Below are positions 10,076 to 28,562 of a stretch of DNA of 64,000 nucleotides, in pieces (the stretch's first letter is position 1; every line of letters starts with the position of its first letter). Under the pieces are notes generated by a model that saw nothing but the letters and a program-made list of their open reading frames with translations, did no database searches and was not told the origin of the DNA. The position numbers were made by a program, and so were the translations under genes. This DNA is from Methylovulum sp. (GTDB lineage: Bacteria; Pseudomonadota; Gammaproteobacteria; Methylococcales; Methylomonadaceae), in assembly GCA_030653435.1 (NCBI GenBank), contig JAURZI010000014.1:1-64000 (forward strand). The letters are read 5' to 3'.

Positions 10076-10632
10076 TGCAATACCTTGGTAGCCAGCTTCA
10101 AGAGTTGGCTGTTGATAGTCAAACCCACTTTACGGGCCGCCGCCAGATTAATCTCGAAACGAACCCTATCATCTATCACCTTCATGCCTATGATGCCGCC
10201 GACCAGCGCAAAATCAGGCAGATCGCTGATGCTGAGCACAGGCTGAGCCGCTATGTCCTGCAGGAGATCCGGCAAGCGTTGTCCTTCGTCTTCGCCGATA
10301 AAAAGGATATGGCAATCCCCCAGACCCGGCTTGGTGACCGTCCGCACCTCAATGGTACGATCATTAAGATCTCTGGCTTGCAACAAGCCAATATTACCGG
10401 ACAAAGGCTGCTCACCGACAACACAAATAATAAAAGGCCCGCCGGCACGTGCCGAGGGCGGCCAAGTTATAAATTTGGCAAAATTGTAGATAAAACTGAC
10501 TTTAACCTGCTGTTCTTTTGTGCCGTCGGCAAACACAGGCGCAACCATGCACACCCAGACCAGCAAGCAGGCAAGTAGCGTTTGCTCTTGGAACGGTTTA
10601 AAGGCATCACGGATTTTTTCAGAAAGGCGCAT
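10072..10632 (-). CDS. YfiR family (DUF4154) periplasmic protein
   Basis: A 186-residue exported protein: a basic, hydrophobic N-terminus ([17 protein letters not shown]) looks like a signal peptide, followed by the DUF4154/YfiR fold starting [16 protein letters not shown]. Family landmarks are [13 protein letters not shown], the Cys in [14 protein letters not shown], and the C-terminal [17 protein letters not shown] and [10 protein letters not shown]. In Pseudomonas, YfiR is the periplasmic repressor of the diguanylate cyclase YfiN. Here it sits between a TonB receptor and a hybrid kinase and overlaps the kinase start by 4 bp. The likely role is a periplasmic link between receptor state and the kinase sensor; this is inferred from gene order. 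Confidence 0.92.
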
Positions 10633-10982
10633 AAAATAACCGGGCTAACACAGTCGCCGCCTTTAGGTGAAATGAGTGTCTCATGCTGAAAATCTATGCC
10701 ATGTTTTGGGGCGCGCGCCAATTCCCGGAGCGGCTTCAAGCTGCCTGACGCAAAGTTCCGCCAAACCTGCCTGGACAACAGATGCCCCTGTTGTCTCCCC
10801 AGAGTTTGTTAAACAATAAGGTCCTAACACAAATTCTAGTGGGTTGTAACCCTTAAAAAGCAGGCCAACCACAGTAGCGACCTGCGCCAGCGGATAGTGA
10901 ACGAACTCTGCCATCAAGTCTGTTGTTTTCATCTTGAACCCATGTCGAATATGTTGGGCATTTAGGGGCTGATTGCCGGACA
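10633..10982. other. Intergenic stretch between TonB receptor and yfiR-like gene
   Basis: About 350 bp separate the receptor from the YfiR-like gene on the same strand. It contains a short hairpin at 10773-10798 (GGACAACAG / CTGTTGTC). A minus-strand frame of about 83 codons (10681 to about 10932) has no recognisable domain, and I cannot tell whether it is expressed. No clear promoter was identified, so it is open whether the yfiR-kinase genes have their own start site or are transcribed from the receptor promoter. Confidence 0.4.
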
Positions 10983-13253
10983 CTACAGCAAACTCAGCTT
11001 CGCTTTCAGCCAAAACGTCGTCGCTTCCAGCGCCGGCGTTCCGGGGGACACGAAACTGTTTGCGTTATTATTCATCGGGTACAAATTATTTTCACCGAGT
11101 ATGTTTTTAACGCTCAACGATAATTCCAGCCGTTCCCAGGGACTATAGAGTACGCCAGCGCTTAACAGATGCCCTCCATCAGCCCTCATGCCGGTCGTTG
11201 CATACCAGTCGCTGTAATACAGATAATTGACGCCGAAACTGACTTGCTGCAAGGCATGCCAAGTGATATTCAAGCGGGTTACATTCTGGGGGGTTGCCCG
11301 TAATTGGCCCGTTTTTGTAATATACATGCTGCCTATGTTTTGTTGGCTGACCGACAAGACATCGACATAAGCATGGCTGGCAGTTACATGGAACGGCCCG
11401 GCGACATAATGGAGGCTGGCTTCAAAACCCAGCTGGTCAATGCTGCCGTCATTGTTTTTAAAAAACCAGTAGTTGTTTGCACTGCCCGGAACATCGCTGC
11501 CTATCGGCGGCACTACGACCCCCAGATCATTACCGTGAATCGCCGCGACGCCAATAATGTTTTTAACCTGGTTATAAAACACCACGTTTTCCCATTGCCA
11601 GTGCGGGCTAAAATGCTGGTTGAAGGCCAGCTCAAACGTCTCCAGTTTTTCAGGCTGGATAGCCGACAAATTTTCGTACCCCGGTATGTTTGCACGACTG
11701 ACCTTGTCGAAATTACCCTCACTAAGCAGGCCGTCATTCCGAAAGCCACCACTGTAATTTAAACCCACTGCACCGCGAAACCCTTGGCTGTAAGAAACCC
11801 GAAACTGCCCGTCTTGCCATGGATAATAAAAAAAACCTAAACGCGGCGACAGGTTTTCACCCCAGTTTTTATGATGGTCGTAACGTATGCCGCCGAATAA
11901 GGTCAGGCTATCATTGAGGACGTAATTGTCTTCGGCAAATAAACTGTACACATCAATATTATTCGGATAGACAAAAGTGTTGCTTTGCTTGAGGGCATCC
12001 AGCATGGCCCGATTTTGGTCAGACATGATATTAACGATGAAATTGTCGCCGTTGGCATTGTTTTCGCCCAAATCATACTGATGAAATTCCGAGCCTAAAG
12101 CCAGCGTATTACCTTGCCATAAATCCTTCAGGCGCAACACAGCCTGTAATCCGTAACGGTTTTCGCGGGTGCCACCTGAAACGGCATTTGCCATTACTGA
12201 ATGCAAGGTGTAATCATCCACGGTCACATCCGCTTTGGTATCCAATTCCACCCCCGGATGAATGTCCCAGCGATGCGACAGGCCGATATAGGTGAGGGAT
12301 TGTTCGAGCTGGTCGCGGTCATAATAAAAATTATACAGATCACGGGTCTGGTCGGTATGAAGCACATCAATATTCAATTTCTGGTAACGAAAATGTCCAA
12401 AAAGACTGAGATTGTCCGAACGCTTTAAACGATGCCCGGCATCGGCAACAAAACCGCCTGAGCTCCCAAGAAACGCCTTGCTTTCCGCCCAGCCTTCGTC
12501 GCGCAAGGCCTGTCCGTCATAATCGTTTTCACTGATGTGCAAGTAAGCGTCATGGCTTCCATTATTAAACGCATACTCCATACCGCCTTGCCAAGCATTA
12601 TTTAAACCGGCTCCGGCCAGTAAATTGGCTTTGCTTTGCTTGCAGCCCTGCACCAACTGTTCGGCATTGCGGGTAACGATATTAATGACCCCCAGCAAAG
12701 CGCCTTGCCCTAAAGTCACTGATCCTGGGCCGCGGATCACTTCGATGCGTTCAATCCAGTCAAAACTATTGCCGTTGAGAATGGCATCCGGCGGCCCCAT
12801 AAACCATTCGGCATTAAGGTTATGCCCGTTCAACAGCATCATTACCTTGGAATTATTATCAGCCGCCAAGCCCCTGAATGACGCTATCGTGTCATCCTGG
12901 TCTTCCACTGTGAAAAAGCCGGGAACATAAGTCGTTAACGCCTCGCTTAAAGTGCGTGCACCGCTCAATTGCAATTGTTCATGAGTGACGACGGTCACCG
13001 AAGCCGGCTGCTTGTCGGGATCCGTAGACACCTTGGAAGCGACGCCTACCCCTGTTTCCAGCAATTGTTCCAACGGCAGTTTTAGCAAGTCGTCGAAAGA
13101 TGCGTCACAATCGGCCCATAATCCCTGTGAGTAGACCAACAAAACCAATACGGACAATGTCTTCAGCCACCGCTGCCTGACAACTACGGCCAGTATTTGA
13201 GAGCCAATAATATCCATTAAACTTCTGCTATTGATGTGATTCTTGTGCCGCAA
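10983..13253 (-). CDS. TonB-dependent outer-membrane receptor
   Basis: A 756-residue receptor. After a signal region (LKTLSVLVLLVYSQGLWA) comes a short segment (DLLKLPLEQLLETGVGVASK) typical of this receptor subgroup. The plug domain follows (QPASVTVVTHEQLQLSGA, VMMLLNGHNLNAE, IERIEVIRGPGSVTLG, GVINIVTRN), then a 22-strand-type barrel ending in an aromatic-containing terminal strand (FWLKAKLSLL). It imports a ligand across the outer membrane with TonB energy; the ligand cannot be read from sequence. The start may be the ATG at 13217. It is the first gene of the receptor-YfiR-kinase-regulator series and resembles the receptor at 43958-46126 in having a YfiR gene directly downstream. Confidence 0.92.
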   Translation of the reverse strand: MRHKNHINSRSLMDIIGSQILAVVVRQRWLKTLSVLVLLVYSQGLWADCDASFDDLLKLPLEQLLETGVGVASKVSTDPDKQPASVTVVTHEQLQLSGARTLSEALTTYVPGFFTVEDQDDTIASFRGLAADNNSKVMMLLNGHNLNAEWFMGPPDAILNGNSFDWIERIEVIRGPGSVTLGQGALLGVINIVTRNAEQLVQGCKQSKANLLAGAGLNNAWQGGMEYAFNNGSHDAYLHISENDYDGQALRDEGWAESKAFLGSSGGFVADAGHRLKRSDNLSLFGHFRYQKLNIDVLHTDQTRDLYNFYYDRDQLEQSLTYIGLSHRWDIHPGVELDTKADVTVDDYTLHSVMANAVSGGTRENRYGLQAVLRLKDLWQGNTLALGSEFHQYDLGENNANGDNFIVNIMSDQNRAMLDALKQSNTFVYPNNIDVYSLFAEDNYVLNDSLTLFGGIRYDHHKNWGENLSPRLGFFYYPWQDGQFRVSYSQGFRGAVGLNYSGGFRNDGLLSEGNFDKVSRANIPGYENLSAIQPEKLETFELAFNQHFSPHWQWENVVFYNQVKNIIGVAAIHGNDLGVVVPPIGSDVPGSANNYWFFKNNDGSIDQLGFEASLHYVAGPFHVTASHAYVDVLSVSQQNIGSMYITKTGQLRATPQNVTRLNITWHALQQVSFGVNYLYYSDWYATTGMRADGGHLLSAGVLYSPWERLELSLSVKNILGENNLYPMNNNANSFVSPGTPALEATTFWLKAKLSLL

Positions 13254-16715: not shown

Positions 16716-18281
16716 CTATCTGACCAGCAACTCCGGCCCAAACCAATCCACAATAACGCGCCGGTAATGCTCGGCTTTTGCCGTTTGCAGATGTTCCAGC
16801 GGGTTCAGGTTATCGGTAAACACTACACCCACGCTGTTGTCCACTGCGAACACCCGGTCTTTCAGCCAGCGGATCTGATCCGGCAGCAAGGCTTTTGATT
16901 CAAGGTCGATAGGCTGATGGGCGGCCAGGAAAATAAAGTCGTTAAAGTCCCGACCGGGCTCGGAGATAAAAACCGATTGCTGCGGGAACACTTCGGTCAG
17001 CGTTTTTGACACGGAGGACAGCGCAACACTGTTTTCGCCATGCGAGAAACCCACGAAATTCAAGGCCAGTATGCCTTGCCCTGTCAACAAGCCGCGTAAC
17101 TGCGTTAGCGTCTCAACGGTTAATAAATGCGCGGGTTCCGAGCCGCCGGTGAAGCAATCGTGAATAATTAAATCGTAAGGGCCTTTTAGATGCCGTATTT
17201 CATAACGCGCATCGCCGACTATCGCCATGCCGGTAGGTTTGAAGCCGAAATAGTGAGTAGCCGCATCAGCGACCGCCGGGTCGATTTCCAGGGTATCGGT
17301 TTCGATGCCGTAACGATCATGCAACACCTTGGCCATGTGGCCTGCGCCTAAACCGATAATCAGTGCACGGGTCATTTTCTTGGGAGCTAACGCGGGAATT
17401 AGGCCGACAATATCCTGATAACTCAAGCGGCTTTGTCCGTCGCTAATGCCGGATGCGCCTATCGTTGACGCATCGGAAGTCAACAGCCGCAGGTCACGGG
17501 ACGGTTGGTCTATCACCCGCACCCAACCGTACAGGCTTTCGCGCTCGGACTGGATGTGAAACATATTGCCGCCGGTATAGCTATGCCCTGCCCCGACTAT
17601 TTTCGGCAACAGGCACAAACCGACTATCGCCAACACCACACTGGGCGTCACGGCAAACTGCATGCTTAATTTTTGTTGCTCATAAATAGCGACAATAATC
17701 GCCAAGACCAGCAATAACAGGCCCAGGCCGACCAGAATCTGCCGCGAACCCACCATCGGAAACAGGAAAAAACCCAAGGTTAGCGTGCCTACCACACTGC
17801 CTACGGTACTGACCGCATAGATGGAGCCGGCGCTGTTGCCGACGCCATCCAGTTTGGATGTCGCCAGTTTTATCGCAAAAGGTCCGACCATGCCCAGCAG
17901 GGTCAAGCTGGGGAAAAACAGCAGCAGCGAACTGACAAAAGCACCGGCGCGTAAGCCTAAGGGGTCGGTCGCCAGCAATACCGCACGGGTCGCCCACGGT
18001 ATCAACAACGTGAATAAGGCGGCCAGTGCGATAATCAACGATAATCCGGTACGCTTTGCCCGGTCTGCCCAGCGTCCGCCGACAAAATAGCCGACAGCCA
18101 GCGCAATCATCGTCACCGAAATCAACGATGACCAGACATAAAGACTGGCTCCGTAAAACGGCGCGATCATCCGTGTGCCTAACAGCTCTATCACCATGAC
18201 CGAAGCCCCGGTTAAAAAAACCGTCAGATAAAGGCCGGTGCGGCCAACCCTATTTAGCGTATTATTCATCATCTTTTCCAT
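16716..18281 (-). CDS. Fused MFS-type membrane domain / spermidine synthase-like protein
   Basis: A 521-residue fusion. Residues about 10-225 carry seven or so transmembrane segments (starting LYLTVFLTGASVMVIELLG, with the VIELLGTRMIAPFYG motif common to this family). Residues about 270-500 are a SpeE-like Rossmann methyltransferase fold (ALIIGLGAGHMAKVLHDRYG, DTLEIDPAVADAA, DLIIHDCFTGGSEPAHLLT). Such fusions are widespread; whether they make polyamines is unclear. It is the most downstream gene of the long minus-strand series and is separated from apbE by 92 bp, so it may or may not be co-transcribed with it. Confidence 0.9.
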   Translation of the reverse strand: MEKMMNNTLNRVGRTGLYLTVFLTGASVMVIELLGTRMIAPFYGASLYVWSSLISVTMIALAVGYFVGGRWADRAKRTGLSLIIALAALFTLLIPWATRAVLLATDPLGLRAGAFVSSLLLFFPSLTLLGMVGPFAIKLATSKLDGVGNSAGSIYAVSTVGSVVGTLTLGFFLFPMVGSRQILVGLGLLLLVLAIIVAIYEQQKLSMQFAVTPSVVLAIVGLCLLPKIVGAGHSYTGGNMFHIQSERESLYGWVRVIDQPSRDLRLLTSDASTIGASGISDGQSRLSYQDIVGLIPALAPKKMTRALIIGLGAGHMAKVLHDRYGIETDTLEIDPAVADAATHYFGFKPTGMAIVGDARYEIRHLKGPYDLIIHDCFTGGSEPAHLLTVETLTQLRGLLTGQGILALNFVGFSHGENSVALSSVSKTLTEVFPQQSVFISEPGRDFNDFIFLAAHQPIDLESKALLPDQIRWLKDRVFAVDNSVGVVFTDNLNPLEHLQTAKAEHYRRVIVDWFGPELLVR

Positions 18282-18356: not shown

Positions 18357-18377
18357 GGCGCGCACGGCGCGCCCTAC
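18357..18377. repeat. GC-rich palindromic repeat, copy 1
   Basis: GGCGCGC-ACG-GCGCGCC followed by CTAC is a near-perfect palindrome. Related copies occur at 27183-27203 and 39601-39626, all ending in CCCTAC. This copy abuts the 3' end of apbE, whose TAG stop lies inside the repeat tail. It looks like a REP-like dispersed intergenic element. Confidence 0.5.
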
Positions 18378-19270
18378 AAAATTAATGAACCGCCGGTATT
18401 GCCCTGGACATCGGCCCAACAATATGGCAAGCCCAAGCCCTCCAGCCATGTGGCGCCCTGGTCTTCCTTAAGCATGGCTATCGTGGATGCGCTGCCGGCA
18501 ACAACGCAGAACTCGCCGACTACGCTGACCGAAGCCAAGTGTTTTACCGGCCAGCCGGTTTTAGGGTTAAGGACATGCCCATAGCGCACGCCATCGACGA
18601 TGAGGCAACGCTCGTAATCGCCGCTGCTGGCCAACGCCCCGTCGAACAAGGACAGTGTTTCCAGTACCGCATCTTTCCGGCGGGGATGGCGTATGCCGAT
18701 GCGCCAGGGACTGCCGTCAGCCCGCGGGCCAATAATTTTAATATCGCCGCCCAAATTGACGACGCCGTGGCGAATACCCGCAGACCAGCACAATGCCGCC
18801 GCCCTATCGACGGCGTATTCCTTGACGATGCCGCCGAAATCGATTTCCATGCCCGGTATCAGAAACTCCAGCACCGCATTATGCCAACGCAGCTTATGCC
18901 AACCTATTTTAGCCAGCAACGCCTGAATCTGACCCTCATCCGGCAAACCTTCACGGTCAAAGCGCCAAGCCCGGCGTAAAATGCCTGAGGTTATATCAAA
19001 CAAACCATCGCTTTGCTGATGGCAGGTTGCCGCATAATTCAGCAACCCGGCGGTTTCAGGATCGACGGCGATACTGCCGCCGGTTGCCGCCACACGATTG
19101 ATCTTGGCTAAAAAACTATCGTCGCGATAGCGGGAATAACGCAGTTCCAGCCGCCTGACATCGGCAACCGCAAGATCTGCCACCTGTTTCGCCCGCGTTG
19201 TGGTTTTGGCAAACAACTGAATATCACAAGGCGTGCCCATCGCCTTGAATTCATTATGATAAAACTTCAT
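18374..19270 (-). CDS. apbE: FAD:protein FMN transferase (ApbE family)
   Basis: A 298-residue ApbE-family enzyme, which attaches FMN covalently to Ser/Thr of exported or membrane flavoproteins, for example NqrB and NqrC. Landmarks: AMGTPCDIQLFAKTTT near the N-terminus, DGLFDITSGILRRAW, the catalytic-region VVNLGGDIKIIGPR, SSGDYERCL, and HVLNPKTGWPV. The start at 19270 (MKFYHNEFKAMGT) is chosen because residues encoded further upstream are unlike the family. No clear signal peptide is seen. It ends the TlpA-DUF4266-DUF3570-ApbE module and is the only apbE in the window, so it could also serve the NQR encoded 36 kb away. Confidence 0.92.
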   Translation of the reverse strand: MKFYHNEFKAMGTPCDIQLFAKTTTRAKQVADLAVADVRRLELRYSRYRDDSFLAKINRVAATGGSIAVDPETAGLLNYAATCHQQSDGLFDITSGILRRAWRFDREGLPDEGQIQALLAKIGWHKLRWHNAVLEFLIPGMEIDFGGIVKEYAVDRAAALCWSAGIRHGVVNLGGDIKIIGPRADGSPWRIGIRHPRRKDAVLETLSLFDGALASSGDYERCLIVDGVRYGHVLNPKTGWPVKHLASVSVVGEFCVVAGSASTIAMLKEDQGATWLEGLGLPYCWADVQGNTGGSLIL

Positions 19271-19307
19271 GCTTGGCTTGACCCGCCCGGTGTATGTGGG
19301 ACGACGC

Positions 19308-21962
19308 TTAAAACGCCAGGCTCCAGGTCGCCGACAACGCACCTTCACGATCCAGCTGATAACCGTTAACATCGGTGTGTACAGGTTGCAACCATTCGAC
19401 GCCCAGGCTGTTGCCCGCCAGATCGCCGCTAGGCACAACGGCATTCAGGCCGAAACCGAGGTCCCAGTAACGTCCGCCGTAACTGCCGGGGTAATCCATA
19501 GGCCCGGATAAAGGATTGACATTCTTGACCACCGCGCCATCGACGACGCCTGGCGTAGGCTTGAATTTGCCGCTGACCGCGTTCTGGTCGGTATAAACGC
19601 CGCGTATCGACGCCGAAAGCCAATGGGTCAGGCTATACCCGCCCCAGGCAGTGGACTGGAATATATCGCCAAAGGCAAAGCCTGATTGGTTTTTATCTTC
19701 GAGACGCGCAGTCCCGCTCATCTGGGCCCCCCATGACCAATCATCCCACTTGCCGGTATAGGTCAGGCTGGGCTTAAAATCCCAGGTGCCGCTGCCCAGT
19801 TGCATGCCGTAATGGATATAGCCTTCGTCCTGTTGATGAGTACGCCTGAGTTTAATGTCTACATCACCGGTCGGTGCGCTGAGGCCCAAACCTAAATGGA
19901 TATGGTGCATCGGCCTGTCGAACAGCTTGAGCAACGCATACATGCCGGTATCGCCAACTCCGCCCGTCGCATGCCCTGTGCCGGTATGAACGTGCCCGCC
20001 CTGTTTAACCGGCGGCGCGCCGTCCAGCTCCCGTAAATTCATTTCCATATCCATGAATTGCGGCATCAGCATCAAGTTTATCCAATCGGTAGGCGCATAC
20101 ATAATGTCCAGCATGTGCATGTGCATATCCATATAGGTCGGCGTTAACCTACAACGGTTACTGCCTTTACCGCAGCCGTTATTGACGATAGCCATATCGT
20201 CGGCTGTTTTTGAACCGTGCAGCACATCCCCTGCCTGACGGCTGTACATGTAACGGTAACCCGCCATCACCTCGTTGGTTTTGCCCAGCATGTGCCCAAA
20301 CATGACACCCGCCGGCGCATGGCTGCCGTGATGGCCGTCGTGACCATGATGGCTGCTGCTGTGATCGCTAAGGGCGGCATTGCCCAGCGTCGCTAAATTC
20401 ACTTTTAACGCGGCGTTGGCGATAAAATAATTGACATCGCTGTAACTGCCTTCGCCGCCGCCGTCCAGTTTTAGCGAACCGGCATGGATATAGTATTCAA
20501 ATCCGGCCTCAAGGCTGACCGCTTTGGAGAATTGCTTGTTTACCGTGACGCCGCCGCTGAGAGCGCCGTAACCTGACAAGCGCTGGTCGCTGGAAAAATT
20601 AGCCGGCAATTGCTGTGGATCAAAAAAAACGGTGGAAGAAATCCCTGTCGTCTTGTCGAATACGCCTTTGGAAAACGCCTGTTTGGAGAGCAGATAAGGC
20701 GCATAAAAGTCGGCGGCAGATTGGGAATAGTAGCGGACTCTGGGCGTGACCGTCCATGTGTTGCCTACAGGCTGCACCCAATCCGCCTCGAAGGTATGGG
20801 CGTCTATGCCCCAATCGTCATGAAAAAAACGGTAATCCAGATGCAGGGCGGCATCCAGCATACCGATATGCTGGATATAACGGCCGCCCAAAGTCATCTG
20901 GTTACGCTCATCAGGCCGTTGTTCCAGCAAGGCGCGCACCATACCCGTCAGGTATTTGCCTTGCTGGTCGGGATCGACGAACACGACGGTCATCACCTTG
21001 TAAGGATTTTCCATATAACCGGTGCTGCGCGTATAAGCTAAGCTGGTCTCGACCAGCGCATCCTTGTTCAAGACCTGCGTCAAACCCAACGCCGTTCCCC
21101 AATCCTCGCGATTGCCGTGCAGGATTTTTAATGCGCCGGCCTGTTCAATCTGGTCTGAAAAAGCGGTGTCAAGGATGTTTGAGTAAGTAGTGTTGAAAAT
21201 ATATGACGTTGAATCATGGTCGAGTATCGCGGACGTGTCGCTGTTGGTGTAACTCAATCCGAGATTCAGGCTGGTCTGTTTCTGGTTAAAATCCCAACGG
21301 CCATTAATATTGCCGAACCGCGATTCATAGTCGTTCTCGACTGAAATGCCGCCGCCTAGATCCAGCGCCGCCTCATCCCATTCGTAGCCCAGTTTGAAAT
21401 CACCCTGCTTGCGTGTTTCCGGCGATGCGCTGGACAAGACATGCACTAGCCGCTCACCGCCATCAATCACCTTATTATTTGAGTTTTGCCTGAGCGGGGT
21501 AAATTGTTTATCCAATAATATCTCGCTAAAGATAATAGGCGATGCGCCAACCGTGACCGTACGCCCGGACGCGGTATTGATCTGGTAGGCGCGGTTGCCT
21601 TTTGTGGCCAGCGGCGCCGTAGTGACCGGCGTGGCGCCTGACCAGGTATCCTGAGTGTAATTGAAAGCGAACTTGATACGGTCTGACAGGCTGATTTTCG
21701 CCTTACCCAGCAAGCTTTCCACTTCAATAGGGTTTCTGTCATTCTTGACAGTATAAAGATTGCGTTTGCCTTCCTGGTAATGACCGTACTGAAAATTGAC
21801 TTCATCGTCTTCTGCGGCATAAGCCGGTGACAACACCAAACCGGGCAAGGCCAATGCGGCAATAGTCAATGCTTGCAGCGATGGACTGGCTGTTGCGGCA
21901 GATTTAGGCTTGGCCGTCCGGGTAAATAGTCGCTGCGCCAGATACCGGCAGGCCGACTGCAT
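19308..21962 (-). CDS. DUF3570 outer-membrane protein fused to a Met/His-rich barrel-like domain
   Basis: An 884-residue exported protein. Residues about 1-50 include a signal-like segment (LTIAALALPGLVLSPAYA). Residues about 50-470 match DUF3570, a beta-barrel-like family found beside DUF4266 and ApbE. A histidine-rich linker (DHSSSHHGHDGHHGSH) joins it to a second barrel-like domain of about 350 residues with a methionine/histidine cluster (YMDMHMHMLDIMY, LMLMPQFMDMEM). The protein ends in a terminal aromatic strand (ATWSLAF). Most DUF3570 proteins lack the second half, so this looks like a fusion. The His and Met clusters suggest metal binding. The start at 21962 lies 19 bp after the DUF4266 stop; the frame is open further up. 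Confidence 0.8.
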   Translation of the reverse strand: MQSACRYLAQRLFTRTAKPKSAATASPSLQALTIAALALPGLVLSPAYAAEDDEVNFQYGHYQEGKRNLYTVKNDRNPIEVESLLGKAKISLSDRIKFAFNYTQDTWSGATPVTTAPLATKGNRAYQINTASGRTVTVGASPIIFSEILLDKQFTPLRQNSNNKVIDGGERLVHVLSSASPETRKQGDFKLGYEWDEAALDLGGGISVENDYESRFGNINGRWDFNQKQTSLNLGLSYTNSDTSAILDHDSTSYIFNTTYSNILDTAFSDQIEQAGALKILHGNREDWGTALGLTQVLNKDALVETSLAYTRSTGYMENPYKVMTVVFVDPDQQGKYLTGMVRALLEQRPDERNQMTLGGRYIQHIGMLDAALHLDYRFFHDDWGIDAHTFEADWVQPVGNTWTVTPRVRYYSQSAADFYAPYLLSKQAFSKGVFDKTTGISSTVFFDPQQLPANFSSDQRLSGYGALSGGVTVNKQFSKAVSLEAGFEYYIHAGSLKLDGGGEGSYSDVNYFIANAALKVNLATLGNAALSDHSSSHHGHDGHHGSHAPAGVMFGHMLGKTNEVMAGYRYMYSRQAGDVLHGSKTADDMAIVNNGCGKGSNRCRLTPTYMDMHMHMLDIMYAPTDWINLMLMPQFMDMEMNLRELDGAPPVKQGGHVHTGTGHATGGVGDTGMYALLKLFDRPMHHIHLGLGLSAPTGDVDIKLRRTHQQDEGYIHYGMQLGSGTWDFKPSLTYTGKWDDWSWGAQMSGTARLEDKNQSGFAFGDIFQSTAWGGYSLTHWLSASIRGVYTDQNAVSGKFKPTPGVVDGAVVKNVNPLSGPMDYPGSYGGRYWDLGFGLNAVVPSGDLAGNSLGVEWLQPVHTDVNGYQLDREGALSATWSLAF

Positions 21963-21981
21963 GGGACGATGTCGTTTTGCT

Positions 21982-22206
21982 TTAATAACAACCACAACCA
22001 CCCCCGCTAGCCGCACTGCTGCCGGAAGCCGCTTCACGGCTGCCATAGCTGTGTTCCCGAAAAGCGCGCTGCATCGGATGAGGCTCCAGGGCCATAGAGG
22101 CTTTGGCCAGTGTGCCACGTTGCCACGGCGCGACCGGCGAACACGCCGCCCCGCTAAAGCCTAAAGCTATCAGCAACACGGTGGACAGGGGGTTCGTTAT
22201 CTTCAT
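21982..22206 (-). CDS. DUF4266 lipoprotein
   Basis: A 74-residue lipoprotein: signal peptide to the lipobox SGAAC (Cys23), then the DUF4266 pattern PWQRGTLAKASMALEPHP, AFREHSYGSREAASG and the Gly/Cys tail GGGCGCY. The conserved C-terminal Cys-Gly-Cys could bind a metal or be modified. DUF4266 genes are regularly found with DUF3570, a thioredoxin and ApbE, as here. It starts 20 bp after the TlpA-like gene and ends 19 bp before the DUF3570 gene. Confidence 0.88.
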   Translation of the reverse strand: MKITNPLSTVLLIALGFSGAACSPVAPWQRGTLAKASMALEPHPMQRAFREHSYGSREAASGSSAASGGGCGCY

Positions 22207-22226: not shown

Positions 22227-22730
22227 TTAGTGTTCGGCCAGTAATTGTTCAACCAGCACTTTCAATTCTTCAGCTTCCCCTGCCCTGAACCCCAGATGGA
22301 TATGTCGGATGTGGCCCTTGCGGTCTACCAGATAAGAGGAAGGCATCGCTTTAACGCCGAAATCCAGCGCACATTGCTGGTTGGTATCAGCGGCTATTTT
22401 GAAACTGGCCGGATATTTGGCAAGAAAACTTTCAGCATCGGCAACTTGCTCATCTAAATTAACACCGATAATCTGCAAGCCGCGTTCTCGGTAGTCGTGA
22501 TCGAGCTGGTTCAAAAAGGGGAATGATTTGGCGCAAGGCCCACACCAGGACGCCCAGAAATCGACATAAAGCACTTTGCCTTCAAATTGCTTAAGCTTGA
22601 AGAGACTATTGTCGCCGGCGGCAGTTAAACGACAGTCCGGCAGTGTGTCACCTTTTTCTGCTGCAAGTGCTGCTGGGGCTGCGCCTAGTGCCAGCACGGC
22701 GCTAAGCAGGATATGGATAGGTGGGTTCAT
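22227..22730 (-). CDS. TlpA/ResA-like periplasmic thioredoxin
   Basis: A 167-residue exported thioredoxin-fold protein: signal peptide MNPPIHILLSAVLALGAAPAALA, then the AhpC/TSA-like core with active-site WASWCGPCAKSFPFL. It probably reduces disulfides in the periplasm, for example on heme or metal-binding partners. It is the first gene of the compact thioredoxin-DUF4266-DUF3570-ApbE series; the DUF4266 lipoprotein with its CxC tail is a plausible client. Confidence 0.92.
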   Translation of the reverse strand: MNPPIHILLSAVLALGAAPAALAAEKGDTLPDCRLTAAGDNSLFKLKQFEGKVLYVDFWASWCGPCAKSFPFLNQLDHDYRERGLQIIGVNLDEQVADAESFLAKYPASFKIAADTNQQCALDFGVKAMPSSYLVDRKGHIRHIHLGFRAGEAEELKVLVEQLLAEH

Positions 22731-22902: not shown

Positions 22903-23346
22903 TTATTGGTTTTGGAGCCGAACAGGTTCAAATGTGCCGGTATGTTGACCTGCGCTAGTCTCGCAATGAATTTGTATATTGTAATTCTCTGCATTTGCGG
23001 CTGTTTTATCCACCGTTAAATAATACATCCCGTTGCCGCCCTTAACCTTCAGCGTTGGGCTATAGGTTGTGTTGCCATCAACAGCATCGGTGGTGTTTCT
23101 CGCGATGGAGCCTTTGGTGACCTGGACGCTGACCAACGGCGCGGCGACCGGCGTCGAGTCTTTGATTTTTACGATAAGATGCTCGGCTGGCCCGGTGCCA
23201 TCATCGAAGCATTCCACTTGGTAATAATCCGTCGCGCCTGCGGCCGATCCTAGCGCTCCGTTTATATCATGGGCCGCAGCAGCACCGGCATATCCGATTG
23301 CAGCGAGCATTGCCACCAGTGTTTTATTCATGGTTATTTGTTTCAT
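22903..23346 (-). CDS. Small secreted protein, paralogue 1, predicted mature N-terminal His
   Basis: A 147-residue exported protein of no family I recognise. The signal peptide is predicted to be cut at GYAGAAAA|HDINGALG, leaving His at position 1. The mature 120 residues have two Cys (VECFDDG and IHCETS), probably a disulfide, and further His in AEHLIV, IQIHC and GQHTG. Conserved blocks shared with its two neighbours are TDAVDGNTTYSPTLKVKGG, VDKTAANAENY and a C-terminal Q-N-Q. The start has GAGG four bases upstream; an alternative ATG at 23331 lacks a ribosome site. An N-terminal His plus internal His is the usual layout of a copper histidine brace; this is inference. Confidence 0.8.
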   Translation of the reverse strand: MKQITMNKTLVAMLAAIGYAGAAAAHDINGALGSAAGATDYYQVECFDDGTGPAEHLIVKIKDSTPVAAPLVSVQVTKGSIARNTTDAVDGNTTYSPTLKVKGGNGMYYLTVDKTAANAENYNIQIHCETSAGQHTGTFEPVRLQNQ

Positions 23347-23387
23347 AAAACCTCTTTAGTTAATAAGTTGTGATACTTTAAACGCTT

Positions 23388-23478
23388 AAGTTTTCGATTT
23401 TTTTGTGTACGCATCGCGTACCTTTTTAGCATGGTGATAAAAATCAATGTAAAAGGTACGCGATGCGTACGAAAACTT
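23388..23478. repeat. Long imperfect palindrome between secreted paralogues
   Basis: Two perfect 20-nt arms (23407-23426 and 23451-23470, GTACGCATCGCGTACCTTTT and its complement) are flanked by outer arms AAGTTTTCG (23388) and CGAAAACTT (23470). Each inner arm is itself a small palindrome (GTACGC-ATC-GCGTAC). The 24-nt centre is AT-rich. It could be a miniature transposable element or a strong RNA hairpin separating transcripts. Confidence 0.75.
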
Positions 23479-23511
23479 GTAAAAACCGTATTGTGACTGT
23501 GCGAAGCATAG

Positions 23512-23958
23512 TTACTGATTTTGTACTGTGGCGATGGCCGTGCCCGTGTTTTTGCCGGCGCTATTCAGGCAAGCGTACTTTAAGGTATACAGCTCTGCGC
23601 CGACAGCCGTCTTATTAACCCTGACGTCGTAAGTGCCGTTGCCGCCTTTGACTATCGCCGCCGGACTATAGGTGGCGTTCCCATCAACAGCATCGGTAGC
23701 GTTTTTACCTAATATGCCTTTAATCACCTGAACGCTAATCATCGGAGCAACGGCCGGCGCCAAGTCGATAAGCGTCACCTTGAGGTTATCGGTGCTGCCG
23801 TTGGCATTGGTGGTGCAGGTAACCCGATAAAAATCAGTTACGCTACTACCCGCACCTAATGAACCACTTAAAGTTCCAGCCGATGTAAGCCCTGTTTGTG
23901 TCAGCAGCCCCAGTAATGCCGCCATTAGCAAGGTGTTTTTTAGGGGTAATTTGTTCAT
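23512..23958 (-). CDS. Small secreted protein, paralogue 2, histidine-less
   Basis: A 148-residue exported protein, clearly paralogous to the genes on both sides (SGSLGAGSSVTDFYRVTC, TDAVDGNATYSPAAIVKGG, VNKTAVGAELYTL). The signal peptide is predicted to end at TGLTSA|GTLSG, so the mature protein starts with Gly. All histidines shared by the other two copies are replaced (N-terminal H by G, DHL by DNL, HC by AC, QHTG by KNTG), while both Cys are kept. GAGG lies six bases before the ATG. The fold is probably kept while a His-dependent function, perhaps metal binding, is lost or changed. Confidence 0.8.
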   Translation of the reverse strand: MNKLPLKNTLLMAALLGLLTQTGLTSAGTLSGSLGAGSSVTDFYRVTCTTNANGSTDNLKVTLIDLAPAVAPMISVQVIKGILGKNATDAVDGNATYSPAAIVKGGNGTYDVRVNKTAVGAELYTLKYACLNSAGKNTGTAIATVQNQ

Positions 23959-24068
23959 GGTAATCCTCGTACCGCTAGCGGGCCAGCGTAAAAAACAATG
24001 TTAAACAGCAATGCAACGTTCCATGAATCCGCAAGTGCAAATTGCCAGAAACAGGCGCGAGCGTAAAC

Positions 24069-24518
24069 CTATTGGTTGGTAAGGCTAAAAATATCGGTAC
24101 CGGTATGTTGATTGTCCCCGGTAATGCAGTGATACTCGATAAGATAGTTTTCTGCACCTGCAGCTGTTTTATCAACCGTCATCAGATAATATTGGTCAGC
24201 ACTGCCCTTAACACTGACTTCCGGGCTATAGCTGGCATCACCGTCCACAGCGTCTGTGGTGTTCGTCGCCGTATCATCCCTGATAACCTGAAGGCTGACC
24301 TTGGGTGTCGCTTTCGGCGCTAAATCTTTTACTGCCACTTCAAGATGGTCGTTAGCGCCACTACCATCGTCAAAGCAATGGACCTGATATTGGTCGATAG
24401 CAGAGTTTGCGTTACCTAGCGAACCGGATTGGTCATGGGCAACCGCCACATTGGCCTGCCCTAACACAGCCAATAATGACACCATTGCCAAAACCGGCTT
24501 TAACGATATTTTTTTCAT
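24069..24518 (-). CDS. Small secreted protein, paralogue 3, predicted mature N-terminal His
   Basis: A 149-residue exported protein. Predicted cleavage at GQANVAVA|HDQSGSLG gives an N-terminal His. Conserved features: Cys in VHCFDDGSG and YHCITGD, His in NDHLEV, YHC and NQHTGTD, and the block TDAVDGDASYSPEVSVKG. It differs from paralogue 1 by extra acidic residues. The start at 24518 is chosen for the AAGGAAC ribosome site; the frame is open to 24533. It is 63 bp downstream of the HEAT-repeat gene. Confidence 0.8.
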   Translation of the reverse strand: MKKISLKPVLAMVSLLAVLGQANVAVAHDQSGSLGNANSAIDQYQVHCFDDGSGANDHLEVAVKDLAPKATPKVSLQVIRDDTATNTTDAVDGDASYSPEVSVKGSADQYYLMTVDKTAAGAENYLIEYHCITGDNQHTGTDIFSLTNQ

Positions 24519-24573
24519 AGTGTTCCTTGTCATTGCTAGTATGCTAGCGTTAAAAATTAAGTCGTACAGCCTG

Positions 24574-24597
24574 GCTTGCTGTCACGGTGCAGCAAGC
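24574..24597. terminator. Hairpin at the 3' end of the HEAT-repeat gene
   Basis: Perfect 8-bp inverted repeat (GCTTGCTG / CAGCAAGC, 8-nt loop) overlapping the stop codon region of the HEAT-repeat gene. It lacks a U-tract, so it may be a pause or processing site rather than a full terminator. Confidence 0.35.
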
Positions 24598-25382
24598 GCA
24601 GCCAATTTCAGCGCCGCAAATTCACGCACGGTTTCATCGCTGTCGCCCAACGCCTGTTGCAATAAGCCGGCATCATTCCCGGCATTATCGACAGCCATTA
24701 ATCGTACCGAGACATCGCTATCTTGTAACGCTGATTGTAATACGGCGGCCATATCTTGCCCTTTAGCCAAACCCGACACGGCTTGCGCCCTCACCTCGGC
24801 ATTTTCGTCTGACAACGCCGCGTCCAAGGCTTTATGGATGGCAGGGTTTTGAACTTCCCCCCGTGCGGCCAACTGGGCAACCGCATCCGCACGGTACTGG
24901 GGATTTTCTGCTGTCGCCGTCTCCAGTAATTTCTCCATACCGTCCATACCCCGTATTTGCGTATCGGTTACGGTATCCACGTCAGCGACCATAAGCCCAG
25001 GCTCCACCTCAAAGCGCCTACCCAACACCCATAGCTCTGCCAGAGGTCTGGGTTGATCGTCTTTAGAGGGCGTGAGGACGTAACGGAAAATCAAATCTGC
25101 ATTTTTGTCCAGCAAACAGTGAAGGATTTCAGTCACCGTTGTTTCTATGCAACTCAACGTAAACAGGCTTTCCGGTAACCCCGAATAATGTATAACCATG
25201 CCGGTTTTATCCGCAACTGCGTTAAGGGCCTGGGCTAAAGGCGCTTGCCGCACTTTCAGCTGCAACTCGGCTCCGGCGTCCCCACCCATCAGGTAGCGGA
25301 TATTACTGTCTTCTGCCATCAACGCCATAGGCGTGCACAACAACCCAGCTATTGCCCATACCCAGAATTTACCTGCAATCAC
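24582..25382 (-). CDS. Exported protein with STN-like and HEAT-repeat domains
   Basis: A 266-residue protein. The GTG at 25382 (GAGGTGG just upstream) gives the signal peptide ending CTPMALMA. Residues about 35-100 resemble a secretin/TonB short N-terminal (STN) domain: LKVRQAPLAQALNAVADKTG, VIHYSGLP and TVTEILHCLLDKNADL. Residues about 150-265 are HEAT-like repeats (YRADAVAQLAARGEV, ALSDENAEVRAQAVSGL, ALQDSDVSVRLMAVDNA, ALGDSDETVREFAALKLA). STN domains usually contact TonB-system or secretin partners, and HEAT repeats are protein-binding, so a periplasmic adaptor role is likely. It sits between the large and small secreted paralogues. Confidence 0.75.
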   Translation of the reverse strand: MIAGKFWVWAIAGLLCTPMALMAEDSNIRYLMGGDAGAELQLKVRQAPLAQALNAVADKTGMVIHYSGLPESLFTLSCIETTVTEILHCLLDKNADLIFRYVLTPSKDDQPRPLAELWVLGRRFEVEPGLMVADVDTVTDTQIRGMDGMEKLLETATAENPQYRADAVAQLAARGEVQNPAIHKALDAALSDENAEVRAQAVSGLAKGQDMAAVLQSALQDSDVSVRLMAVDNAGNDAGLLQQALGDSDETVREFAALKLAALAAP

Positions 25383-25494
25383 CACCACCTCAATAATGCA
25401 AACATCCAGACAACATCCGTCTCTTCTAGCTACAACAAGAAAAGCCAAAACAATCGCCGTATTATCAACAGCAACTGTTTCGGCATAAGCCACC

Positions 25495-25538
25495 GATTTT
25501 TAAATCACCACGCCCGTCCGCAGAGTGATTTAAAAATC
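25495..25538. terminator. 14-bp hairpin downstream of large secreted protein A
   Basis: Perfect inverted repeat GATTTTTAAATCAC / GTGATTTAAAAATC with a 16-nt loop, between the large secreted gene and the HEAT-repeat gene. It is the second of two adjacent hairpins met by a transcript from the minus strand. Confidence 0.5.
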
Positions 25539-25539
25539 G

Positions 25540-25569
25540 CAGTACCCTTACGATCAGGCAAGGGTACTG
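25540..25569. terminator. 10-bp hairpin downstream of large secreted protein A
   Basis: Perfect inverted repeat CAGTACCCTT / AAGGGTACTG with a 10-nt loop, one base from the next hairpin. The pair probably terminates or processes the sigma-54-driven transcript of the gene at 25634-26671. Confidence 0.5.
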
Positions 25570-25633
25570 AAAACACCGACGATACTCAAGCTTTTCAAGG
25601 CTTGCTATCGCCCGATTTTATCCGTTACTTGGA

Positions 25634-26671
25634 TTATTCAAATTTTGCGCCGGGTGCAGCACCAGGATATGCGCCTTGTTTGATAGTCAGGTTAGCGTCG
25701 ATGTCGGCGCCGCTAGGCTCAACAACGACATCATAACTTTCGCCATTACAGGCAGCAGGCAGTGGGTTAGTCGTTTCATTACGCGTCACAGTGAAAGATG
25801 GCCAGAAGCTTTTGCCATTGCCTTGCTCTGTCAACGTGGCATCCGTCATGCCTAATGTTTCACGGCTATTGGGCATAATGCCGTGATCTGGGCCTGTCAT
25901 GCTATATAAAACGCTGCCGGTATCGGTGCCAATCCAAACGTCTTTACGGTCGGCATCATGTTTCTTACCGCCGCCTCTTTTGCACCAGTTAGAAACTGCG
26001 GTACGCACGATAAGATTTTTGGCACAGGATGTGGTTTTAAAGGTAGGCACGTTAAATTTGAAAGCAGAGAGTCCGGTCGTGCTAACGATACTTTCCTGTA
26101 AAGGCGACTCAATCATGGAATACGGGCCTTGTTGTACCGGGCCGTTGAAAACGGCATAGCCACGGATAGCCAGAGTATCGTTTACTTTCGGAATAATCAA
26201 AGAACCAAACAGGTTTGGCGTCACCAGACCCAGACCCATATTGCTGAATGCTGCACCTGCCACTGCGCCATTGATATCATCCGTCAAGTCGCTAGGGCTG
26301 ACAACCGGCAGGCTGGTTGGCTGTCCGGTAAGGACCGTTCCATCCACACCCACTGTGTTGGCGACAATAGAACCAGTTTTGTAGCGATAGATAATAGCAT
26401 CAGCTGAACTGGGTGAATTGGGGAACAAGGCTCCAACCGCAATCACATTGCCACGTACCGCTGCGCCGCCTTCTGGAATGGCGTTGCTTGCACAGCCATG
26501 ACTGACAGTAAACGCATTATAAGCGGATGCGCCACTTCCCGTGTTGCCTACGCCTTCAACAAACACTTTATCTTTAATGCCTGTGTGGGCAAATGCACTT
26601 TGTCCAGCGACACAAATAACCGCCGCTACTGAACACAAAGCTATTTTTGTTGCGATGCTGTTTTTTTTCAT
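25634..26671 (-). CDS. Large secreted protein A, predicted mature N-terminal His
   Basis: A 345-residue exported protein of uncertain family. Signal peptide cleavage is predicted at GQSAFA|HTGIKDK, giving N-terminal His. Landmarks shared with protein B: AYNAFTVSHGC, PTFKTTSCAKNLIVR, NWCKRG, DVWIG, and a C-terminal block with FWPSFTVTRN, TNPLPAAC and ADIDANL. Four Cys positions are conserved. The domain reminds me of the copper-responsive surface proteins MopE/CorA of methanotrophs, but I cannot confirm homology here. GGAGG five bases upstream fixes the ATG at 26671. It is preceded by a sigma-54-type promoter. Confidence 0.8.
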   Translation of the reverse strand: MKKNSIATKIALCSVAAVICVAGQSAFAHTGIKDKVFVEGVGNTGSGASAYNAFTVSHGCASNAIPEGGAAVRGNVIAVGALFPNSPSSADAIIYRYKTGSIVANTVGVDGTVLTGQPTSLPVVSPSDLTDDINGAVAGAAFSNMGLGLVTPNLFGSLIIPKVNDTLAIRGYAVFNGPVQQGPYSMIESPLQESIVSTTGLSAFKFNVPTFKTTSCAKNLIVRTAVSNWCKRGGGKKHDADRKDVWIGTDTGSVLYSMTGPDHGIMPNSRETLGMTDATLTEQGNGKSFWPSFTVTRNETTNPLPAACNGESYDVVVEPSGADIDANLTIKQGAYPGAAPGAKFE

Positions 26672-26765
26672 CAAGTCCTCCAGGACATTATATTTATGTA
26701 AGATAGTGTGACCTAGGCATTCAATCCATTATCGCCTATATCCGTTTAAGGTTACATCATCATAG

Positions 26766-26784
26766 TAAGCACTATTCATGCCAA
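26766..26784 (-). promoter_or_regulatory. Sigma-54 (-24/-12) promoter of large secreted protein A
   Basis: The minus strand reads TTGGCATGAATAGTGCTTA: TGGCATG, four bases, GTGCT, with the diagnostic GG (26782-26781) and GC (26770-26769) exactly 10 bases apart. The same block occurs before protein B. The predicted transcription start near 26757 gives a leader of about 85 nt. Confidence 0.75.
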
Positions 26785-26965
26785 AAAAAACAATGCACGA
26801 GCTTTTTTTAGAAGCCTCCCGCATTACATAACGACTTAATTTACAATTAGTTAGCAATACACACACAAAATAACCCACACTTATTCCGACCACACTCCGT
26901 AATATCATTCCCAAACTCCTAAAAAGCTTAGCCTCTATTGTGTTTTCTTAATGAATTTAGTGAGT

Positions 26966-27076
26966 CATATCACACATTTTAATCGGCCTGTTAATGCCAC
27001 AACCCGCATTCCTATTAGCTGTAAATTAAAATGCGTGATATGCCTAACAAAACCGGGGCATATAACACAGTTTAAT
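26966..27076. promoter_or_regulatory. Three copies of an upstream activator-like motif
   Basis: Consensus CATATNACACANTTTAAT. Copies: 26966-26983 (CATATCACACATTTTAAT), 27025-27042 in reverse (complement CATATCACGCATTTTAAT) and 27059-27076 (CATATAACACAGTTTAAT). The first overlaps a dyad GTGA-N6-TCAC. They are about 205, 265 and 300 bp upstream of the -12 element of protein A, the usual range for enhancer-binding activators of sigma-54 promoters. Confidence 0.65.
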
Positions 27077-27182
27077 TATTTCATTACCCCCATCTGAGTC
27101 AAGAAGCGTTGAAGTTTTTGCCAGAGGTCATTATTCAGCCTTTTCCCACCGCGCGCGCCATCCGCGGCTCGGTACCGGAAAA

Positions 27183-27203
27183 GGCGCGCGCGGCGCGCCC
27201 TAC
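27183..27203. repeat. GC-rich palindromic repeat, copy 2
   Basis: GGCGCGC-GCG-GCGCGCC followed by CTACG, matching the copy at 18357. It interrupts the array of upstream motifs between 27076 and 27214. Confidence 0.5.
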
Positions 27204-27213
27204 GTTTCTGGGT

Positions 27214-27231
27214 CATATAACACAGTTTAAT
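27214..27231. promoter_or_regulatory. Fourth copy of the upstream motif
   Basis: CATATAACACAGTTTAAT is identical over 18 bases to the copy at 27059. The two flank the GC-rich palindrome, which suggests local duplication. It is about 450 bp from the protein A promoter. Confidence 0.55.
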
Positions 27232-27396
27232 TATTTTGTTAATTCAGTTCGCTCTAGCGAAACACGTAGGATGGGTTTATGTAGGAAGTGCCAACAACAG
27301 ATATGCCATGTCTGACAGCCTCTAAGGCATCATTCAGGGCAGGCTTAAAAAGCTACAGCGAAACCTTATCGGATAACCGTGCCAACCTTAAACCAA

Positions 27397-27470
27397 CCAA
27401 TTGACGCATAGGAGCCTGCCTGATTTATCAGCGCAGAATCCTATGCAATATGAATAGCCCAATCAATTGG
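27397..27470. repeat. Nested inverted repeats
   Basis: Outer arms CCAATTGA (27397) and TCAATTGG (27463) enclose inner arms GCATAGGA (27406) and TCCTATGC (27439). The structure lies 65 bp past the stop of protein B. It may be a structured 3' end or the end of a decayed small element. Confidence 0.45.
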
Positions 27471-27534
27471 ACTTAACAACTAGACCGATCATTGCATCGG
27501 CAAGCTGTGAGGATATTTTGCAGATGCCTGTTGA

Positions 27535-28455
27535 TTATTTTCTAGTCGTTGGCCAATAGAATTGGGGCGCCGCTTTTGGAGCATGACCATAAGGAATCGG
27601 CAAGTTTGCGTCAATATCCGCATCAGCAGGTTCGATAGCCAAGTTATAACCGTCACCGCATGCAGCAGGCAGGGGGTTGGTGGTTAGGTTACGGGCAATC
27701 GTCATCGTCGGCCAATAGACCTTACCCAAATCCATATCGGCTTGGCTGTAAGGCATAACGGCTGGATCATTGAATTTTGTGGTCAGATGACCAATCCAGA
27801 CATCGGCTCTGGCGGAATCTTTATAGCTTTTTAGGCCTTTTTCGCAGTAATTGACTTCAGCTACACGCACTCTCAAGCTCTTAGCGCATGACGTGGATTT
27901 GAAAGACACCGGACCGACAACGAAAGGAGCAAACGCAGATCCGCTGGTGACTTCTTGCCAGATAGGCGCTGACTCATAAGGTTTTGGGCCGTTGTGTGCA
28001 GCGAAACCTCTTTTTAAAGGCGTTGAATGGGCTCCAACCAACGTATTTTTGTCAATATTTGGGATAAAGTTAGGAAATACGTTAGGCTGTACCGTATTTA
28101 ATCCGAGTCCGGTAAAACCTACGCCAGACACCACACCCGTAATATCCTCGGATAAGTCGGGTAAAGTGCCTACAATCGCACCGGTAGTCACATCCAGCTT
28201 GGTTACGACAGCCATCAACGGGTCGGCGGCATTTGGAAACACAGACGACATGGCAACGATATTTTTGCTGTTTCCCGTTGCTGAGTCACCATTACCATCA
28301 CAACCATGAGATAAGTTAAATGCGTTATAGGACACTACGCCTTCCTGAACAACATCTCTGATGCCGGTATGCGCCAATACGCTTTGGGCAGCAACAGATA
28401 CTAACGTCGCAGCCGAATAAAGTGCCAATTTTTTTACCAGTTTGGTGTTTGTCAT
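27535..28455 (-). CDS. Large secreted protein B, predicted mature N-terminal His
   Basis: A 306-residue paralogue of protein A. Predicted cleavage at AAQSVLA|HTGIRDV again yields N-terminal His. Shared landmarks: SYNAFNLSHGC, QPNVFPNF, SFKSTSCAKSLRVR, VNYCEKG, DVWIGH, YWPTMTIARN, TNPLPAAC and ADIDANLPIPYG. It has extra His residues (GAHSTP, AAHNGP, YGHAP). The ATG at 28455 has GGGGG five bases upstream, in the same position as in protein A. It carries its own sigma-54 promoter. It is probably a periplasmic, surface or secreted protein; metal binding is inferred from the N-terminal His and the conserved SHGC. Confidence 0.8.
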   Translation of the reverse strand: MTNTKLVKKLALYSAATLVSVAAQSVLAHTGIRDVVQEGVVSYNAFNLSHGCDGNGDSATGNSKNIVAMSSVFPNAADPLMAVVTKLDVTTGAIVGTLPDLSEDITGVVSGVGFTGLGLNTVQPNVFPNFIPNIDKNTLVGAHSTPLKRGFAAHNGPKPYESAPIWQEVTSGSAFAPFVVGPVSFKSTSCAKSLRVRVAEVNYCEKGLKSYKDSARADVWIGHLTTKFNDPAVMPYSQADMDLGKVYWPTMTIARNLTTNPLPAACGDGYNLAIEPADADIDANLPIPYGHAPKAAPQFYWPTTRK

Positions 28456-28562
28456 CAAGTCCCCCTTGGGATACGTTATTAGATTGTTATGTGAGTTTTA
28501 CCGTTACCGTATAGGCCAGGATCGTTTACAGCCTGTTCCGTTTATCGCTAACTCAATAAGAC

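Follow-up and report, generated by a model that had tools for sequence, protein, structure and literature searches.

The stretch of DNA analysed here, called the window in the following text, comprises 64,000 nucleotides (positions 1 to 64,000 of contig JAURZI010000014.1) of a genome from the Methylovulum group. Downstream of secA, on the minus strand, the window carries a block of genes that code, in this order, for two members of a large exported protein family (BIG), a HEAT-repeat protein, three members of a small exported family (SMALL), a TlpA-like protein, a DUF4266 protein, a DUF3570 protein, ApbE and an MFS/spermidine-synthase-like protein. Neither BIG nor SMALL has a curated name. An earlier, sequence-only reading of the interval 22903-28455 had noticed that several exported proteins encoded there should begin with histidine after signal cleavage, and had suggested an extracellular copper-binding or redox system. 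This interval corresponds to the first six genes of the block, and the operon extends past it. We propose that the block encodes a metal-binding, likely copper-binding, envelope redox system of methanotrophic Gammaproteobacteria, a reading to which we assign a probability of about one half.

Exported proteins with predicted N-terminal histidine

The first BIG protein (P0005, 306 amino acids from ATG; 27535-28458) has its predicted mature start, His1, at position 28371 and contains the motif His22-Gly-Cys24. The second BIG protein (P0004; 25634-26674), with predicted His1 at 26587, is 44% identical to P0005 over P0005 residues 2-300. Three histidines (His1, His103 and His111) are present in two of the SMALL proteins, P0003 (24069-24533; predicted mature start His1 at 24437) and P0001 (22903-23346; predicted mature start His1 at 23271). 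In their paralogue P0002 (23512-23958), they are replaced by Gly, Ala and Asn, respectively, and both cysteines are present.

Signal peptides are commonly cleaved after an AxA sequence. Signal-like segments of the block end (slash marks the predicted cut) in QSVLA/HTGIRD (27535-28458), QSAFA/HTGIKD (25634-26674), NVAVA/HDQSGS (24069-24533) and AGAAAA/HDINGA (22903-23346), the fifth exported protein (23512-23958) ending its segment in LTSA/GTLSGS, with no histidine. The earlier count of four AxA-His starts among five exported proteins is thus borne out by the open reading frames (ORFs), although it may have to be given as four of six, as the HEAT ORF (24582-25493) is possibly exported too. Cleavage before His is predicted from the AxA rule together with conservation, and the exact cut in 22903-23346 is ambiguous because of the AAAA run. 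As the four proteins with His starts form two paralogue pairs, they count as about two independent events; conservation provides stronger evidence than these four starts.

Our alignments of BIG (A2) and SMALL (A3), as well as an earlier set of rows, were picked by a rule asking for His after Ala or Gly, and His1 is therefore conserved in A2 and A3 by construction. In sets collected without this rule, both His1 and His22 occur in all 54 distinct, complete, stand-alone BIG proteins found by profile (63 rows, less 4 fusions, 2 truncated entries and 3 copies), the residue preceding His1 being Ala in 52 of them and Ser and Gly in one each. His1 is likewise present in 64 of 89 distinct full-length SMALL domains. 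For comparison, when further ORFs with a signal-peptide-like start, taken from the window and from related loci, were scanned in a crude way, 5 of 130 had AxA-His; three of the five are BIG or SMALL members, which leaves a background of 2/127, where the 127 ORFs may include some BIG or SMALL members lacking His. In the training set of SignalP 6.0, histidine occupies mature position 1 in 2.6% of cases (PMC12537917).

It could be argued that the histidine after AxA is incidental, either because the true cut lies elsewhere or because signal cleavage in these bacteria characteristically leaves His at +1. In 22903-23346, the AAAA run does permit other cuts, and the mature starts are predicted from sequence. 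Nevertheless, a background of 2/127 compared with 54/54 in BIG and 64/89 in SMALL makes such an explanation very improbable, as does a fusion protein (described below) that lacks His at the start of its large domain, where this start is no longer terminal.

The small family and its three histidines

The state of the three histidines could be compared in the 89 SMALL domains. This set was drawn from fetched loci, not from every match: 119 of 135 domain matches were full length, 89 remained after removal of duplicates, and 2 of the 89 are near-copies. All three histidines are present in 63 domains and none in 24 (6 of these being internal domains or having a gap at position 1), only 2 domains being mixed. 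Both cysteines are present in all 26 rows without the complete triad. In alignment A3, composed of 34 of 35 rule-picked rows and two manually added ones (the His-less P0002 among these), His111 and His103, which directly precedes Cys104, are nearly invariant. This nearly all-or-none presence of the triad strongly suggests a metal site, and the pattern is that expected, from sequence, of a site with three histidines. In a tree of 83 SMALL rows (6 of the 89 domains were dropped because they are internal), constructed without the three columns, His1 changes five times, His103 five times and His111 four times. P0002 falls into a clade of eight His-less paralogues from the genus of the window.

A different explanation would see the block as an envelope-stress or disulfide system, in which the Cys-containing exported proteins are substrates of TlpA and DUF4266 and the histidines, instead of binding metal, help in folding or mediate BIG-SMALL contact. 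Both families have conserved cysteines and the operon encodes TlpA and a CXC protein, which would fit this role. However, in 87 of 89 domains the three histidines, distant in sequence, are either all present or all absent, with the Cys pair retained, and an exposed histidine at the chain terminus would have no obvious role in folding; we thus hold this explanation to be improbable.

SMALL-type domains occur also in other contexts. The genome of the window contains a second operon of like build (L117, G000:C123:62000-80000, approximately 6978-13015), composed of genes for a HEAT protein, three weak SMALL-like proteins, a DUF3570 protein with His/Met-rich tail and a DUF4266-like protein; no BIG gene was seen in it. 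Exported proteins of about 290 residues (ALDSG...ATDYFKI.C), holding SMALL-type domains without the His triad, are encoded in L075, L077, L079, L083 and related loci; after each of them comes a short SMALL protein with the three histidines. In Methyloglobulus (L097:6692-7609), a segment with the haem-type motif CATGCH is joined to a SMALL-type domain without the triad; its Pfam cytochrome match (E 0.007) lies below the family cut-off.

The large family

In alignment A2 (39 BIG rows), residues H22, C24, P46, C176, W192 and P248 are invariant. The alignment was derived from 44 BIG matches, of which four were left out (one truncated at the start, one in which Ser precedes His, and two fragments next to the L091 gene); L076, a near-copy of L075, was dropped from the other 40. 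BIG proteins contain four conserved cysteines, and their best matches among named genomes come from Methylovulum miyakonense and other Methylovulum. In L091, an intact BIG gene is preceded upstream by two short overlapping ORFs (8592-9229) that resemble the BIG profile, each in another frame, and may represent a broken BIG copy.

BIG and SMALL as a probable joint system

Between BIG and SMALL, no similarity is detectable (hhalign probability 0.2%), and the possibility that they are mutual relatives was rejected, as profile comparison gave it no support. The earlier statement that two unrelated families share an N-terminal His within one cluster therefore stands, with the histidine conserved in both families and the block conserved in methanotroph genomes. 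In three genomes (L026, L027 and L028), one protein fuses a three-His SMALL domain to a BIG domain, and the BIG domain, which is no longer chain-terminal there, lacks His at its start. Since the two families are joined in this way, they probably act together.

A scan of 84,980 species genomes, not exhaustive because a single peptide pattern was used, yielded 37 BIG loci. Raw counts of partner genes in these loci, including loci near contig ends, are SMALL 31, TlpA 25, DUF3570 25, HEAT 19, ApbE 18, DUF4266 15 and the last gene of the block 11. Where SMALL is missing (six loci), no more than about 1.5 kb of contig remains beyond BIG. Gene order varies (for example in L074, L084, L093 and L095), and in L087 the TlpA relative is located about 7 kb upstream, outside the block. 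Among 151 genomes of the window's taxonomic family, BIG is present in 50 and SMALL in 75; SMALL accompanies BIG in 46 of the 50 BIG-positive genomes and occurs in 29 of the 101 BIG-negative ones. The block is also carried by the genome of Methylovulum miyakonense (L061).

Two further members of the block belong to neither family. The probably exported HEAT-repeat protein (P0006; 24582-25493; HEAT_2, E 3.4e-9) has its true start probably inside the ORF; its N-terminal part appears STN-like by eye, Pfam giving no match for this part. The fused MFS/spermidine-synthase-like protein (16716-18281; NF037959, E 1.2e-59) is encoded by the last gene, which closes the block in several relatives as well. 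Unnamed proteins with no Pfam match are encoded in or beside the block at L096:11698-12396, L097:2468-3130 and L091:11871-12512; the first two have a membrane-anchor-like start segment, and their ends are alike.

Predicted redox partners

Downstream of the SMALL genes, the block continues with a TlpA/ResA-like protein of thioredoxin fold with the motif CGPC (22227-22730), a small lipoprotein-like DUF4266 protein with C-terminal CGCY (21982-22206; PF14086, E 2.1e-20), a DUF3570 protein (19308-22118; PF12094 at residues 82-565) and the FAD:protein FMN transferase ApbE (18374-19444; PF02424, E 1.4e-73). DUF3570 proteins have been shown by experiment to be flavinylated by ApbE at [S/T]GA[S/T] motifs, two of which appear in the published motif logo, and clusters of DUF3570, DUF4266, thioredoxin and ApbE are known, 316 of them without DsbD nearby (PMC8238504). 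The block of the window shares with these systems all four partners. The window DUF3570 has one SGAT, a candidate flavinylation site of the motif type; among 25 DUF3570 rows, from which pieces of 500 residues or fewer were excluded, at least one such motif is present in 20 and two in 12.

The block differs from the published systems in that it begins with BIG and SMALL and in that its DUF3570 protein has a His/Met-rich C-terminal extension. The last 370 residues of the window protein include 21 His and 20 Met. In 24 of the 25 rows, the last 360 residues contain a minimum of 12 His and 16 Met, the exception being a cut ORF, and the three tails scanned against Pfam gave no usable name. A third DUF3570 gene of the genome (G000:C43:15945-17126; open frame of 464 amino acids) lacks the long C-terminal extension. 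In the main text of the flavinylation study (PMC8238504; supplements lie outside this count), the terms "methylo" and "methanotroph" have 0 occurrences.

The presence of TlpA, DUF4266, DUF3570 and ApbE in the operon makes the redox side of the earlier proposal stronger than it was when first put forward. On the metal side, the SMALL triad suggests a site whose metal may be copper, and the proteins may be extracellular or periplasmic.

Distribution and relation to methane monooxygenase

Both families are confined to methanotroph lineages within the genomes searched. Of the 37 BIG loci, 31 come from genomes bearing names of methanotroph taxa and 6 from entries named "uncultured proteobacterium". 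A draw of 274 Gammaproteobacteria gave 5 BIG and 3 SMALL matches; three of the five BIG matches lie outside the window's taxonomic family, all three in genomes with pmoA, the marker used here for particulate methane monooxygenase (pMMO). Altogether, pmoA was found in 36 of 38 BIG-positive genomes tested (of 53 found), compared with one match in 11 other Gammaproteobacteria. A plasmid collection contained no relatives of P0003 or P0005.

The same site could bind another metal (Ni, Zn, Fe or Mn), which the block would then scavenge or reduce. Iron assimilation has been suggested as a role of DUF3570 systems, 25 DUF3570 clusters containing a VIT1 iron transporter (PMC8238504), and proteins with N-terminal His can prefer Ni, as in the case of DUF4198 (PMC12537917). 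Copper is weakly favoured by the restriction of the block to methane oxidisers, most of which have pMMO, a copper enzyme, and by the Met/His-rich tail of DUF3570. We consider a different metal a less likely possibility.

Comparison with known systems

Pfam holds models for CopC, PCuAC, MbnP/MopE and lytic polysaccharide monooxygenases (LPMOs). None of these models matched any of 31 BIG and 36 SMALL members, and the same scans (E up to 10 for BIG, up to 1 for SMALL) gave no known copper family at all. Searches of Pfam, NCBIfam and PDB sequences yielded no usable name for either family, in agreement with the sequence-only reading, which could not name them; names with low scores look like chance. 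As to MopE/CorA, CopC, PCuAC and YcnI, against which that reading had advised a profile search, there was no Pfam match, and likeness to YcnI extends over about 20 N-terminal columns.

In Bacillus subtilis YcnI, copper is bound by His27, the mature N-terminus, and Glu50, with Trp137 nearby (PMC8424229). BIG has in common with YcnI and other DUF1775 proteins the export, the predicted mature N-terminal His and an HGC motif, whose His in 17 fetched proteobacterial DUF1775 proteins is mostly residue 23 (His23-Gly-Cys25), compared with residue 22 in BIG. When a proteobacterial DUF1775 member is aligned to a DUF1775-like solved structure, HGC falls beside a Glu, which would correspond to the YcnI ligand. 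The probability of BIG-DUF1775 profile matches was 11% at first, 24% without gappy columns and 56% for the first 60 columns, the similarity always covering the same 16-20 N-terminal columns, nearly in register with His1. In hhalign, the first 60 BIG columns beat 200 of 200 decoys, but the decoys lack the HGC motif, so that 0/200 scoring as high says little beyond the shared motif itself. BIG differs from YcnI in being about twice as long as DUF1775 and in its four conserved cysteines. Pfam gave no DUF1775 (PF07987) match for the 31 BIG members at E <= 10, and no DUF1775 was found in the genome of the window at E <= 1e-10. We considered and rejected BIG as a full YcnI homologue, as equivalence of Trp192, following Cys176, with YcnI Trp137 was unsupported by a sub-profile test. 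A YcnI-like mode of action, with His replacing Glu, is thus plausible for BIG, which nevertheless is not recognised as a DUF1775 member.

A metal site on the mature N-terminal His is also known from CopC, PmoF1 PCuAC, DUF4198, DUF6702 and Ang-1/Ang-2 (PMC10952591, PMC12537917). CopC, PCuAC, DUF4198 and DUF6702 are absent from the Pfam matches of BIG and SMALL (Ang-1 and Ang-2 lie outside this comparison), and the partners of these known proteins are different ones; BIG and SMALL show no permease domain. CorA/MopE and CorB resemble BIG and SMALL in being exported proteins of Methylococcales and are implicated in copper acquisition (PMC11784148), but no such family appears among Pfam or PDB matches of BIG and SMALL, and the MopE site consists of a kynurenine and two His. 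MEALZ_0810 and MEALZ_0811 are further surface proteins, induced when copper is limiting. Judged by titles and abstract beginnings, no description of the block was recognised in the literature searched.

With respect to a histidine brace, the conserved, predicted N-terminal His of both families is accompanied by further histidines, His103 and His111 in SMALL, which co-vary with it apart from the exceptions given below, and His22 in BIG, which is as conserved as His1. Because the brace has been linked to oxygenase and peroxygenase activity (PMC10952591), SMALL or BIG might be an enzyme of LPMO or peroxygenase type, its copper being reduced by the flavin/thioredoxin chain to activate O2 or H2O2. 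The block does encode an electron-donor chain, and L097 joins a SMALL-type domain to a haem-motif segment. Against such an enzyme speak the Pfam scans, in which no LPMO family appeared, and the PDB searches, with no convincing match to a solved structure; three histidines and an amine would leave little room for O2, and no substrate is in sight. We therefore regard an oxidative enzyme as unlikely.

Proposed function

Returning to the metal-binding redox system, we picture it as follows. SMALL would hold a single metal ion (Cu(II) being the most likely one) by way of its free N-terminal amine, the imidazole of His1, and His103 and His111, at a site adjoining a putative Cys21-Cys104 disulfide. 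BIG would bind metal at its own N-terminus via His1 and His22 in a YcnI-like manner, His22 standing approximately at the position of the YcnI Glu ligand. The two families would form one complex, in which the His-less SMALL paralogue could be a structural partner. Flavinylated DUF3570, TlpA and DUF4266 would supply the bound metal with electrons or withdraw them from it, and reduced metal might be accepted by the Met/His-rich tail of DUF3570. The system as a whole would capture Cu(II), reduce it and deliver Cu(I) for use by pMMO. Of these steps, binding of a metal by SMALL through its N-terminus would be the best founded; copper, its capture and its reduction for pMMO would be weaker ones.

In its most specific form, the proposal is that BIG and SMALL build a joint complex at the cell surface that contains two distinct copper sites, each based on an N-terminal His (His1-His22 in BIG, the amine and three His in SMALL). 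This complex would be connected to a flavinylated protein of the outer membrane whose Met/His-rich domain accepts copper, and the whole would represent a mode of reductive copper capture distinct from methanobactin and MopE/CorA. We advance this only tentatively and consider it rather doubtful in all its details.

Several observations weigh against the proposed function. Copper as the metal of BIG and SMALL is deduced indirectly, and the scan of 20 window proteins revealed no recognisable gene for copper transport. The resemblance to YcnI is confined to about 20 columns and was sought after the motif had been noticed; the C-terminal part of BIG gave no match to DUF1775, with 112 of 200 decoys scoring as high. 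Two mixed SMALL domains exist, L057 (D,H,H) and L096 (H,T,H). Joint losses of the histidines are few, well-supported branches of the tree forcing only two changes of His1, so that a paired sign test cannot reach significance. Six further distinct full-length SMALL domains found later (one truncated row and two copies of the known fusion were not counted) include one with all three histidines, one with none and four of other kinds. The last four are weakly related copies; G324 has one of them (K,F,H), and the other three belong to the second operon of the window genome. After the likely cut, the second-operon proteins start with GVIKPLH or GDIKPLHG, the His aligned with His1 being residue 7; one of them keeps both other histidines and two keep one. 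We read them as a separate subgroup, yet they are evidence against a strict triad rule. As for distribution, of the three BIG matches outside the family those in G286 and G178 are weak or broken. Two of the 38 tested BIG-positive genomes lack pmoA, and pmoA is present in 11 of 11 BIG-negative family members tested. It follows that pMMO does not require the block and that the two do not always occur together; a strict tie, considered as a candidate, was rejected because of the two genomes without pmoA.

How methanotrophs without methanobactin collect copper and deliver it to pMMO is an open question. The block supplies for it defined genes, a putative site of three histidines and a set of proteins for flavin- and thiol-based electron transfer. 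The natural His-less paralogues offer built-in negative controls, and the points raised here are directly testable in a cultured relative, Methylovulum miyakonense.

Neighbouring features

Near the block, at positions 5065-13253, the window encodes a TonB-dependent receptor, a YfiR-like protein, a CHASE8 hybrid histidine kinase and two GGDEF response regulators. Between two of the SMALL genes (23373-23511) lies an intergenic element built around a perfect 20-bp hairpin starting GTACGCATCGCGTACC, with a DNA fold z-score of -7.3. The element belongs to a dispersed family with 26 further rows elsewhere in the genome (E <= 1e-3), several places matching on both strands, and looks like a palindromic repeat of the repetitive extragenic palindrome (REP) or miniature inverted repeat transposable element (MITE) type.

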